The notes beneath the pieces were generated by a model. That model saw only the letters and a program-made list of their open reading frames with translations, was not told the DNA's origin and made no database searches. A stretch of 64,000 nucleotides of DNA from Leptolyngbya sp. NIES-3755 (lineage in GTDB: Bacteria; Cyanobacteriota; Cyanobacteriia; Leptolyngbyales; Leptolyngbyaceae), in contig AP017308.1 in NCBI GenBank assembly GCA_001548435.1, positions 5,279,030 to 5,343,029 of the forward strand, given 5' to 3'. Position numbers and translations under genes: made by a program. Positions 9,599 to 50,866 of this stretch are shown piece after piece; position 1 is the first letter of the stretch; every line of letters begins with the position of its first letter.

Positions 9599-10657
9599 AT
9601 GACCATCGCAGTAGGTCGCGCCCCAGCGCAGAGAGGCGTATTCGATGCCCTCGACGACTGGCTCAAACGCGATAGATTCGTCTTCGTCGGCTGGTCAGGT
9701 ATCCTGCTTTTCCCCTGTGCCTTCCTGGCACTCGGCGGCTGGATGACCGGCACCACCTTCGTGTCCTCCTGGTACACCCACGGACTCGCCTCCTCGTACC
9801 TCGAAGGCTGTAACTTCCTCACCGTTGCCGTTTCCACTCCCGCAGACAGCTTGGGACACTCCTTGCTGCTGCTCTGGGGACCGGAAGCACAAGGTGACTT
9901 CACCCGCTGGTGTCAACTCGGCGGACTCTGGACCTTCGTTGCCCTCCACGGCGCGTTCGGTCTGATCGGCTTCTGTCTACGTCAGCTCGAAATCGCACGA
10001 CTCGTCGGCATTCGTCCGTACAACGCGATCGCGTTCACCGGACCGATCGCGGTATTCGTCTCGGTGTTCTTGATGTACCCGTTGGGACAATCGAGCTGGT
10101 TCTTCGCACCCTCGTTTGGTGTCGCTGCAATCTTCCGTTTCATCTTGTTCATCCAAGGGTTCCACAACTTCACCCTGAACCCGTTCCACATGATGGGCGT
10201 GGCTGGGATTCTCGGTGGCGCACTGCTGTGTGCGATTCATGGAGCGACGGTTGAGAACACCTTGTTTGAAGACGGCGACGGGTCGAGCACCTTCCGGGCG
10301 TTTAACCCGACCCAAGCCGAAGAAACCTATTCGATGGTGACCGCGAACCGCTTCTGGTCACAGATCTTCGGAATTGCCTTCAGCAACAAACGGTGGTTGC
10401 ACTTCTTCATGCTGTTCGTCCCTGTGACGGGACTGTGGATGGCATCGGTGGGCATCATCGGGATTGCGCTCAACCTGCGCGCCTACGACTTCGTCTCTCA
10501 GGAACTTCGAGCTGCTGAAGACCCGGAATTTGAAACGTTCTACACGAAGAACATTTTGCTGAACGAGGGCATCCGGGCGTGGATGGCATCTCAGGATCAG
10601 CCGCATGAACACTTTGTATTCCCTGAAGAAGTGCTGCCTCGCGGTAACGCTCTCTAA
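9599..10657 (+). CDS. psbD: Photosystem II reaction-center protein D2, stand-alone copy
   Basis: 352 residues, the exact normal D2 length, starting [10 protein letters not shown] at the ATG after TTTGGAGA; an upstream in-frame ATG at 9584 is too far into the leader. D2 binds P680 chlorophyll, pheophytin, QA and the non-heme iron in the thylakoid membrane. Key residues are all present: TyrD at 160, His189, the chlorophyll ligand His197, iron ligands His214 and His268, and Trp253 at the QA site. Position 191 is Phe where I recall Trp in D2 sequences generally. psbC does not follow (a terminator does), so this is the monocistronic psbD2-type copy. Codons are strongly C/G-ended, as expected for very high expression. 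Confidence 0.97.
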
Positions 10658-10683
10658 GAAGCAAAGTCTTTCTGATTCCATTG

Positions 10684-10713
10684 GCTCCTACCTCTTTGGT
10701 GGGAGCTTTTTTT
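10684..10713 (+). terminator. Rho-independent terminator of psbD
   Basis: GCTCCTACC (10684-10692) pairs with GGTGGGAGC (10698-10706) with one G-T pair and a 5-base loop, followed directly by seven T. It lies 27 bases past the psbD stop and shows that psbD is transcribed alone. Confidence 0.9.
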
Positions 10714-10718
10714 AAGGC

Positions 10719-10749
10719 TTGACACATTCTCGAATAGACGTGCTACATT
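10719..10749 (+). promoter_or_regulatory. Sigma70-type promoter of the leader/small-RNA unit
   Basis: Perfect -35 TTGACA (10719-10724) and an extended -10 TGCTACATT with TACATT at 10744-10749. The spacer is 19 bases, slightly long. It sits immediately after the psbD terminator and drives the 23-aa ORF that follows. Confidence 0.6.
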
Positions 10750-10833
10750 GAATTACAGATGAAGGAATTCGATGAGTTCCGAGTCTGTAAACCCTTTGAA
10801 ATTTATCCACTTAGGACATAGGAGGTGATGCCC

Positions 10834-10905
10834 ATGCCAGATAGTAGTAAATGCTTGGGTCGTCAGGTTAGAGTTAGTCGGCTGTGCGCCGGGGCTGTTC
10901 TCTAA
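10834..10905 (+). CDS. 23-residue peptide with perfect Shine-Dalgarno
   Basis: ATG at 10834, TAA at 10903-10905. AGGAGGTGAT at 10820-10829 is fully complementary to the 3' end of 16S rRNA and lies 8 bases (from AGGAGG) before the ATG; a second in-frame ATG at 10828 is too close to that site. The peptide starts MPDSSKCLGRQ, ends LCAGAVL, is basic and has two Cys. I do not recognise it. The quality of the ribosome-binding site, better than that of any long gene here, is the main argument that it is translated, either as a leader peptide or as a functional miniprotein. Confidence 0.5.
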   Translation: MPDSSKCLGRQVRVSRLCAGAVL

Positions 10906-10931
10906 CAGTTATTTCAGACCTTTTGTAAGTA

Positions 10932-11123
10932 TTGTCCGTACAATTCTTCAATCACTGGACTAACTCGGAGTTTCCTTCCGGCAGTCTGGTTTCTAAACTG
11001 AAGACCCGCTACACCGCTCTTGTTCATGAGGTTTGGATGCGTCCTGCCTCCCCGAACAGGAGCGGATGGTTTTTTAAAGAGAAAATTTACACGACCGCTC
11101 TAAAGAAGTACGTCCTTAGATAG
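10932..11123 (+). CDS. Possible small ORF (63 codons, TTG start), doubtful
   Basis: An open frame from a TTG at 10932 to the TAG at 11121-11123 encodes a plausible-looking basic polypeptide with SEFPSGSLVSKLKTRYTALV and WMRPASPNRSGWFF. There is no convincing ribosome-binding site, the frame is closed by TAA just upstream, and it runs through the terminator stem at 11014-11075, so it may be only a by-product of RNA structure. I list it because composition is protein-like and no other gene occupies the stretch. Confidence 0.2.
   Translation: MSVQFFNHWTNSEFPSGSLVSKLKTRYTALVHEVWMRPASPNRSGWFFKEKIYTTALKKYVLR
11014..11075 (+). terminator. Intrinsic terminator with a 12-bp stem
   Basis: CCGCTCTTGTTC (11014-11025) pairs with GAACAGGAGCGG (11054-11065) over 12 positions with one G-T pair; the 28-base loop can form an inner GAGG/CCTC stem. 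ATGG and six T follow (11070-11075). It ends the unit that starts at 10757, about 290 bases before the porin ATG. Confidence 0.65.
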
Positions 11124-11364: not shown

Positions 11365-13242
11365 ATGCGTAAGATCTTATTGAACTCTCTGTTCACAAGT
11401 CCTGCTGTTTTGGGCGCAGCTCTAATGATGTCTTCCTCCGCGATCGCGGCTCCGAAGGCAGAAGTCGCTGGACTGCCCGCTCTTGAAGTTGGAACTCAGT
11501 CGAAGGTCGTTGCACCTCTTACTGAAGTCAAGGCTCTGGCTGATGTGAAATCGCTCAGCCCCGAAAAGACCGCTGAAACGGTCAAGCCTCAACCCCAAAT
11601 TGCAGCAGAATTCAGCCCTGCTAAATCTGTAGTCGTAAACGAGCCTGTAAAAGTTGCCCAAGCCGCAACCGAAACTCCGGCAACCCCCACCAGCGTTGAT
11701 TCCTTGAACCAAATCAACCGCTACAGCCGCGAAGGACAAGGCGCAACCAGCGCAGGTCAAGTTACCTCAGTGTCTCAGCTTTCCGATGTTCGTCCCACTG
11801 ACTGGGCATTCCAAGCACTCCAATCCCTGGTTGAACGCTATGGCTGTATCGCTGGCTATCCCGATCGTACTTACCGGGGCAATCGCGCTCTGACTCGTTT
11901 CGAGTTCGCAGCCGGTCTGAATGCTTGTCTCGATCGAGTGAACGAATTGATCGCCGCTTCAACCGCTGACTTGGTGAAGAAAGAAGACCTCGCAACCCTA
12001 CAGAAGCTGCAAGAGCAATTCGCAGCAGAGTTGGCAACAATTCGCGGACGAGTGGATGCGTTGGAAGCTCGCACAACCACGTTGGAGAGACAGCAATTCT
12101 CGACCACGACGAAACTCGCGGGTGAGGCAATCTTCGCAGTCACCGATGAGTTTGGTGTTCGTGGAACTGGCGGGAATAACACCGTCTTCCAGAACCGGAT
12201 TCGTTTAGCATTAAACACCAGCTTCACCGGAAGAGACTTGTTAGTCACCCGGATTGCAGCAGGAAACGCTGACCTCTTCCAATTGAATGGCGCAGGCACA
12301 CCGGGTGGAGCCGTAGCTGAAGGGATTCAAACCTTTAACTTCGGTAACACAGGCGGAAACCGTGGCTTCATTGACTGGGTTGCTTACTACTTCCCGGTTG
12401 GCGAAAACCTGAGATTCTATATCCCAGTAGTCGGCGGTTTGCACTATGACTATGCTCCGACCATCAGCCCTGCTTTGGATGCGGCTGACGGTGGTACAGG
12501 TCCGCTCTCGGTCTTCGCTCAACGTAACCCGATTTACTTGATCGGTGGTGGTAGTGGAATCGGTGCGACTTTCGGCATCAACAGCGCTTTCCAACTGAGT
12601 GCAGGTTATTTGGCTGACAACTCAGACGGAACTCAGCTCACCTTTGGAGCCAATAACCCTGCTGCTGGGGGTGGCTTGTTCAACGGAAGCTACGGTGCTT
12701 TGGCTCAATTGACCTTCACTCCAAGCAATGCCCTGCAAATCGGTTTAACCTACGTCAACGCCTACCGTCGTGGCGCGATCTTTGATACCGGTTCGGCATT
12801 GGCTTCTTCTGGAACCTTCCTGGCAAACCGTAACATCGGTGGATCGGGTGCTTCTCAAGTTAGCGCTTACGGTGCTTCGGTCGCATTCAGACCGAGTCCT
12901 AACATTGTGCTGAACGCATTTGGTTCGTTGATCAACGCGAACTTTGTGGATGACGGTGAAGGACAGAAAGACATCTGGACTTATGGAGTTGGGGTTGCGT
13001 TCCCTGACTTCGGTAAGAAAGGCAACCTGCTTGGATTTGTTGCGGGTGCTGAGCCTTACATGGGTAATCCGGGTGCTGGTTTGCGGAATGACATTCCGTT
13101 GCACTTTGAAGGATTCTACAAGTACCAATTGACCGACAACATCTCGGTGACTCCAGGTGTGATCTGGGTCGTGAATCCGGGTCAAAACGAGGCAAATGAT
13201 GATGTTGTGATCGGTACGATTAGAACGACCTTCACGTTCTAA
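11365..13242 (+). CDS. Iron-uptake-type porin with SLH domain (OprB family)
   Basis: 625 residues. A signal peptide ends near SSSAIAAPKA at about residue 29, followed by a Pro/Val/Ala-rich linker. An SLH domain occupies roughly residues 138-190 (VRPTDWAFQALQSLVERYGC, PDRTYRGNRALTRFEFAAGL), then a coiled coil (LATLQKLQEQFAAELATIRG), and from about 260 onward a beta-barrel rich in Gly, Asn and aromatic residues, ending in ...IRTTFTF with the C-terminal Phe used for outer-membrane insertion. This is the major cyanobacterial porin family (Slr1841/SomA-like). Inorganic-ion and iron permeation is known for some members; selectivity here is unknown. Confidence 0.93.
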   Translation: MRKILLNSLFTSPAVLGAALMMSSSAIAAPKAEVAGLPALEVGTQSKVVAPLTEVKALADVKSLSPEKTAETVKPQPQIAAEFSPAKSVVVNEPVKVAQAATETPATPTSVDSLNQINRYSREGQGATSAGQVTSVSQLSDVRPTDWAFQALQSLVERYGCIAGYPDRTYRGNRALTRFEFAAGLNACLDRVNELIAASTADLVKKEDLATLQKLQEQFAAELATIRGRVDALEARTTTLERQQFSTTTKLAGEAIFAVTDEFGVRGTGGNNTVFQNRIRLALNTSFTGRDLLVTRIAAGNADLFQLNGAGTPGGAVAEGIQTFNFGNTGGNRGFIDWVAYYFPVGENLRFYIPVVGGLHYDYAPTISPALDAADGGTGPLSVFAQRNPIYLIGGGSGIGATFGINSAFQLSAGYLADNSDGTQLTFGANNPAAGGGLFNGSYGALAQLTFTPSNALQIGLTYVNAYRRGAIFDTGSALASSGTFLANRNIGGSGASQVSAYGASVAFRPSPNIVLNAFGSLINANFVDDGEGQKDIWTYGVGVAFPDFGKKGNLLGFVAGAEPYMGNPGAGLRNDIPLHFEGFYKYQLTDNISVTPGVIWVVNPGQNEANDDVVIGTIRTTFTF

Positions 13243-50665: not shown

Positions 50666-50711
50666 GTTTCGAGTGACAGCCGACGAGCGACCCTCCGAAG
50701 CGTGATATGCT

Positions 50712-50837
50712 TGCATTCCGTCGGTTCTGTAGAAAAAACTGTCAGAGGTAACGGGGAAAGTTTGGTGCAAGTCCAACGCTGTCCCGCAACTGTAAGAGAA
50801 CTTGATCTCTCAAGCCAGAACGCCCGCCGATGGTGCA
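50712..50837 (+). promoter_or_regulatory. Cobalamin (adenosylcobalamin) riboswitch
   Basis: Conserved blocks are in order: a GGTAACGGGGAA core, TGGTGCAAGTCCAACGCT, GTCCCGCAACTGTAAG and the B12-box-like GCCAGAACGCCCGCC. The ends (TGCATTCCGTCGG at 50712-50724; CCGATGGTGCA at 50827-50837) can close P1. It sits in the leader of the HupE-like gene, 29 bases before its ATG, and should lower its expression when B12 is plentiful. Confidence 0.93.
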
Positions 50838-50866
50838 TTCCTTTCTACATCTGCGAGGCACAGAGT

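Follow-up and report, generated by a model that had tools for sequence, protein, structure and literature searches.

A conserved cyanobacterial unit in which a short reading frame behind a full Shine–Dalgarno sequence pairs with the 3′ arm of its own predicted RNA

The window analysed here, a 64-kb stretch of DNA in whose positions all coordinates are given, contains a single-copy gene unit between psbD and a porin gene (10740–11075, + strand, read directly from the sequence). Codons 8–21 of its 23-codon ORF pair with a conserved 3′ arm through three nested helices (H2, P1b, and P1a), all of which covary, and the ORF is preceded by a conserved Shine–Dalgarno sequence of maximal length; this combination is the new element of the present analysis. 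The unit very probably represents a homolog of the cyanobacterial small RNA Sye_sRNA1 (Synechocystis TU475), an identity based on gene position. We give roughly even chances to the reading that it is a self-contained gene encoding a structured sRNA that is translated and whose ribosome-gated hairpin would act in trans or on the ribosome. The features are as follows.

9599–10657, +: psbD, upstream neighbour, outside the unit, with its own strong terminator at 10683–10713
10740–10749, +: extended −10 promoter element GTGCTACATT, read from the sequence and matching the family TGTGnTAnnnT
near 10757, +: predicted transcript start
10807–10815, +: conserved 5′UTR box CC(G/A)(T/C)TTAGG, here CCACTTAGG, nearly invariant in the alignment
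10820–10829, +: full Shine–Dalgarno sequence AGGAGGTGAT
10834–10905, +: 23-codon ORF encoding MPDSSKCLGRQVRVSRLCAGAVL, followed by the stop codon
10857–10871, +: 5′ arm of helix H2, GGGUCGUCAGGUUAG (codons 8–13), from covariation
10878–10883, +: 5′ arm of helix P1b, UCGGCU (codons 15–17), five pairs with double changes
10888–10894, +: 5′ arm of helix P1a, GCCGGGG (codons 19–21), 98.7% paired
10906–10970, +: variable loop region from the stop codon to the 3′ arm, differing widely in length among the aligned loci
10976–10982, +: 3′ arm of helix P1a, UUCCGGC, from covariation
10983–10989, +: 3′ arm of helix P1b, AGUC-U-GG, from covariation
10993–11007, +: 3′ arm of helix H2, CUAAACUGAAGACCC, from covariation
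11014–11075, +: intrinsic terminator with conserved arms ACCGCUC and GAGCGGAU and T6, from sequence and alignment
11365–13242, +: porin gene, downstream neighbour in conserved order, outside the unit

Distribution, boundaries, and neighbours of the unit

A 376-nt query of the unit matched 51 of 58 relatives belonging to many families, with E values down to 4e-161 outside its own genome. Searching with a profile made from the sequence alone of the first 99 nt detected the gene in 293 of the 390 Cyanobacteriia genomes; it is almost always single-copy, as it is in the genome of the window. Among the matches listed, none came from non-photosynthetic members of the phylum. Of 30 negative genomes re-examined with a structured model, 29 stayed negative. 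Assembly gaps at psbD, which is apparently repeated in the genome and causes many draft assemblies to end a few hundred bases ahead of the unit, may explain some negatives, such as those of the congeners G003 and G005. The negatives of family f2 (small genomes, probably marine picocyanobacteria), which persisted with the structured model, and of the f16/g34 group suggest that the gene is truly absent or has diverged strongly. Phage or plasmid origin was rejected because the unit had no match in collections of viral contigs, phages, and plasmids. No tRNA or tmRNA was found within it, and it scored below the gathering cut-off everywhere in Rfam 15 (4,227 families), with nothing at permissive thresholds either. 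Elsewhere in the window, a Cobalamin riboswitch lies at 50705–50845 (+; 54.4 bits).

The two promoter boxes named in the preliminary description are both present (TTGACA, 10719–10724; TACATT, 10744–10749), but their spacer is 19 nt and the −35 box is visible in the genus only. The conserved part is the extended −10 element: TGTGnTAnnnT precedes the ATG in 132 loci, mostly at positions −70 to −100 relative to it, versus one in a control stretch. The RNA would measure about 250–320 nt, the lengths predicted for the S. elongatus type and for the window being about 240 nt and 320 nt, respectively. At the 3′ end, the 12-bp terminator with T6 was also found, with the refinement that one of the 12 pairs between CCGCTCTTGTTC (11014–11025) and GAACAGGAGCGG (11054–11065) is G·U and that the loop measures 28 nt, which is why a simple terminator scanner missed it. 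AT-rich lineages such as L061, L075, and L096 carry unrelated terminators in place of the conserved one.

The order psbD, unit, (pterin carbinolamine dehydratase), porin recurs among the loci and is probably old. The psbD copy of the window (9599–10713) has no psbC behind it. Okeania- and Microcoleus-type loci (L129, L178, L121, and others) carry a GAF-domain cyclase-like gene behind the dehydratase, with a porin next in the same order in L129 and L178.

This order, with the porin or the dehydratase coming first downstream and on the same strand in 110 of 174 loci, together with the leader-like anatomy of the unit, favours a leader-peptide attenuator of the downstream dehydratase–porin operon, one of the two readings offered in the preliminary description. 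We consider such an attenuator very unlikely. The next gene lies on the opposite strand, in convergent orientation, in about 20 loci according to gene calls made as simple longest ORFs (for example, L066, L074, L083, L087, L088, L091, L094, L103, L107, L132, L136, L141, L168, L173, L187, and L208), and the downstream gene itself varies, being a cyclase or MerR gene in some loci. When the 3′ arm and terminator were folded without the ORF, the terminator stayed intact in nearly all loci tested; it also folds when the 3′ arm is left out, and neither an antitermination pairing nor a competing antiterminator was found in the folds with and without the ORF. The ORF has no regulatory codon run. Porin attenuation was therefore rejected, and the promoter motif, the convergent next genes, and the terminator that remains intact without the ORF indicate a gene in its own right rather than a leader. 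The other reading, an independent gene for a small RNA or miniprotein, agrees with the unit's own promoter and terminator, its single copy, its wide conservation, and the frequent lack of a same-strand downstream gene.

Start signals and reading frame

The ribosome-binding site is the near-invariant 10-nt complement of the 16S tail. GGAGGT stands ahead of the start in 198 of 198 loci and the whole of AGGAGGTGAT in 169 of them, and the spacing from GGAGG to the ATG is 8 nt in 192. The 10-mer occurs once in the window versus 0.07 copies expected. As previously described, it lies 8 nt ahead of the ATG at 10834 when counted from AGGAGG, which corresponds to 4 nt from the end of the full 10-mer. 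In L071, L073, and L078, the spacer to the ATG has changed and the Shine–Dalgarno sequence has been retained, which points to ribosome binding as the conserved property.

The 23-codon ORF reported earlier is likewise present, ending with TAA at 10903–10905, and has exactly 23 codons in 171 of 195 unique loci; the stop is UGA in 4 of 198 loci. The offset from the ATG to the helix strand is 54 nt in 174 loci. Indels inside the ORF amount to +3 in eight loci and −1 in three, and two of the latter (L081 and L088) still stop near codon 24. The encoded peptides follow the motif M.[DE]SSK.[LMV]G......L[CR]AGAVL, with conserved termini M.[DE]SSK and L[CR]AGAVL. Substitution statistics, for which loci were counted without regard to phylogeny, gave a pN/pS of 0.77 for the whole ORF versus 1.05–1.15 off frame, a comparison in which the helix confounds the amino-acid signal. 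By part, pN/pS was 1.17 in codons 2–9 and 0.90 in codons 10–17, that is, with no synonymous preference over codons 2–17, and 0.36 in codons 18–23, where the off frames gave 1.3 to 4.3. The synonymous excess in codons 18–23 fits peptide constraint, although a helix with G·U/A-U exchanges could imitate such an excess.

These data bear on a serious rival explanation, to which we nevertheless assign a low probability: the unit would be the mRNA of a functional 23-residue micropeptide, and the hairpin would merely set the amount of peptide. The perfect start signals, the prevalence of the 23-codon length, the frame-preserving indels, the excess in codons 18–23, and the conserved termini all accord with a micropeptide, whereas codons 10–15 swap very unlike residues (H/R/L, Q/L, and A/G/E/D), codons 2–17 lack a clear synonymous excess, and several lineages stop at codon 16–17 with the helix kept. 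The ORF has 17 codons in L065, L067, L082, and L117 and 16 in L077; in Thermosynechococcus-like and S. elongatus-like genomes, it ends after 17 codons and the pairing partner is retained. Because the helix is kept in these short-ORF loci, the RNA and not the peptide appears to be the conserved object there, and the substitution patterns suggest that the peptide is weakly constrained. No match to the ORF peptide was recognised in a micro-protein list of Synechocystis 6803, in which the shortest entry has 26 aa.

Several further regularities of the ORF were observed. At codon 18, where Cys or Arg is usual, L082 and L117 (S. elongatus type) as well as L065, L067, L070, and L113 (Thermosynechococcus type) have a TGA or TAG stop. 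The frame past this stop in L067 and L082 still gives AG(V/T)VL and then terminates at codon 24, which looks like the trace of a recent shortening. Codon 8 (10855–10857 in the window) is nearly always NTG (ATG in 101, TTG in 25, GTG in 20, and CTG in 19 of 171 loci), so that its first base is free and the codon is always a possible start. Codons 4–6 (10843–10851 in the window), AGTAGTAAA, are nearly fixed as nucleotides despite lying outside the covarying helices; Ser4 and Ser5 are almost always AGT, and Ser is hardly ever TCN.

Covariation of the ORF-to-tail hairpin

Rather than the lack of conservation that would speak against the preliminary description, a conserved frame and covarying helices were found. 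In P1a (GCCGGGG with UUCCGGC), exchanges from C-G to U-A and from G-C to A-U occur in many lineages. RNAalifold, unprompted, added P1b (CCGGCU with AGUC-N-GG) together with a 4-nt bulge, and double changes were present in 8 of the 14 pairs. Over these 14 pairs of P1a and P1b, 96.9% of the cells were paired, with 59 double-change cells versus 10.8 ± 2.9 in shuffles. For H2, in which codons 8–13 (GGGUCnUCAGGUUG) pair with CAAUCUGAAGACCC, 88.4% of the cells were paired in an alignment of the 41 loci that align gap-free from the GACCC end, and the same alignment contained 50 double-change cells versus 14.6 ± 5.9, a number that no shuffle reached. An independent permutation with 52 loci gave 613 paired cells versus 562 ± 6.8. 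Because shuffles ignore relatedness, controls with slid partners matter here; sliding lowered the paired fraction to 21–56% for P1 and to 28–55% for H2. The mean hybridisation energy of the ORF arm was −39.4 kcal/mol with its own 3′ arm, −32.1 kcal/mol with those of other species, and −24.8 kcal/mol with shuffled arms.

The long hairpin is present in the minimum-energy folds of many relatives. The window's own minimum-energy fold contains a partial hairpin, with 8 of the 37 ORF-arm bases paired with the 3′ arm, and its duplex between the two arms is among the weaker ones. Within the variable loop region, the local hairpin changes from lineage to lineage. Two departures from the common architecture were noted: L025 carries an insertion of about 100 nt between the ORF and the 3′ element, with partial TTCC...CAGTC copies preceding the intact one, and family f23 (L089, L090, L116, L118, and L119) has kept the Shine–Dalgarno sequence, the start, and the beginning of the ORF and has seemingly lost the 3′ arm.

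Other local structures did not hold across the family. The 7-bp stem earlier said to enclose the stop codon exists (GTTAGAG, 10867–10873, with CTCTAAC, 10900–10906), but it is confined to the genus, with GTTGCAG, GTTGAAG, and similar sequences elsewhere, and was rejected as a conserved structure; the stem kept by evolution is the longer one formed with the 3′ element. A local hairpin in codons 16–20 (CGGC/GCCG) was dropped because P1 stays paired where a CAA codon 16 breaks it, and a separate GGUUUC/GAAGACC hairpin was abandoned in favour of H2.

Possible function and relation to known RNAs

The anatomy of the unit implies that translation and the hairpin should be mutually exclusive, since codons 8–21 lie inside the hairpin. 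The strong Shine–Dalgarno sequence, the AUG, and codons 1–7 would remain outside it, unpaired at its 5′ side; codons 8–21 would serve as the 5′ strand of the nested H2–P1b–P1a hairpin, with the tail of the RNA just ahead of the terminator as the 3′ strand. If the ORF is translated in vivo, a ribosome would have to melt the hairpin, and one terminating at codon 24 (18 in the short forms) would still cover the P1 strand. The C/U-rich 3′ arm (GAGUUCCUUCCGGCAGUC...GAAGACCC) would thus be free during translation and buried once initiation stops, ribosome occupancy being the putative switch, and either the freed arm or the ribosome-bound state could act in trans on mRNAs or ribosomes, with the peptide largely a by-product. 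For each of the downstream gene, the conserved terminator, and the full peptide, there is a lineage that does without it, whereas the Shine–Dalgarno sequence, start, stop, and hairpin persist; we therefore favour action in trans. Counting against the ribosome-gated reading are the pN/pS of 0.36 in codons 18–23, the partial hairpin and weaker duplex of the window's own unit, the negative searches for the gene in f2 and f16/g34, and the result of a crude target search with a 15-nt reverse-complement pattern of the 3′ arm in six genomes, which gave scattered sites with two mismatches and no recurrent site that we recognised.

A more specific version is tentative and, in our estimate, possible rather than probable: the RNA would gauge translation, with ribosomes at the maximal Shine–Dalgarno sequence toggling the ORF-to-tail hairpin and the state being read out in trans, through the freed C/U-rich arm or through 30S subunits being tied up, irrespective of the peptide. 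If so, one of the most abundant cyanobacterial RNAs would report or set translation capacity. In any case, the conserved, maximally strong start and the covarying hairpin between ORF and tail make an orphan "non-coding" RNA, Sye_sRNA1/TU475, a concrete candidate for a ribosome-gated switch that can be tested in genetically tractable strains.

Many cyanobacterial mRNAs lack a Shine–Dalgarno sequence. An abundant RNA carrying the strongest possible one might therefore act simply as a decoy for the 30S subunit, tying up the anti-Shine–Dalgarno sequence and setting the competition of Shine–Dalgarno-led mRNAs. The near-invariant complement of the 16S tail and the weak peptide constraint are consistent with a decoy, as are its reported rank among the most abundant transcripts and its reported decrease in high light (PMC6091082), and ribosomes might be held close to the start by the hairpin that follows codon 7. 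We regard a decoy alone as improbable, as it leaves the conserved 3′ arm and the helices that covary far from the start unexplained.

Sye_sRNA1 is described in Synechococcus elongatus UTEX 2973 as an sRNA of about 200 nt that was the most abundant one in this strain under control and high-temperature conditions and was lowered by high light; its homologs are among the most abundant transcripts of Synechocystis 6803 (TU475) and 6714 (TU2045), and one was also seen in Anabaena 7120 (PMC6091082). The family is reported to sit downstream of psbD or cobB (sll1501), with its function given as not known (PMC6091082). Our loci share this placement, with psbD upstream in the window and many others and cobB, recognised from its sequence and not by a database match, directly upstream in the Synechocystis-like loci L101 and L239. 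In G064, a genome of the S. elongatus type, 2,726 nt separate the ATG of the unit from the beginning of the second porin, a start-to-start distance of about 2.7 kb that agrees with the 2,714 nt listed from the Sye_sRNA1 start to the somA start on the same strand (PMC6091082, Table 1), so that this unit fits Sye_sRNA1. Gene order after psbD or cobB, size class, and wide conservation are thus alike (PMC6091082). The S. elongatus unit has the short 17-codon ORF, versus 23 codons in the window, and the account of Sye_sRNA1 in PMC6091082, as far as it covers this RNA's description, calls it an sRNA and names neither an ORF nor a pairing of an ORF with a 3′ arm. In the literature searched, no later paper using the name Sye_sRNA1 or TU475 in the same sense was found. 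The earlier statement that the unit matches no known RNA or peptide family accordingly holds for Rfam and has to be amended by its very probable homology to this published RNA (PMC6091082).

The unit resembles Yfr1, Yfr2, PsrR1, and Ncr0700 in being abundant and conserved in cyanobacteria and differs from them in matching no Rfam family; we know of no ORF in these and similar sRNAs. With leader-peptide attenuators such as the trp and erm leaders, it has in common a short ORF in which codons base-pair with a segment immediately ahead of a terminator, but it lacks their conserved downstream gene, regulatory codon run, and competing antiterminator. It also resembles dual-function sRNAs such as S. 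aureus RNAIII, SgrS/SgrT, and PhrS, in which a short translated ORF likewise lies within a structured sRNA with C/U-rich segments, translation being predicted for the unit; unlike in these RNAs, the ORF of the unit itself constitutes one strand of the main conserved helix.
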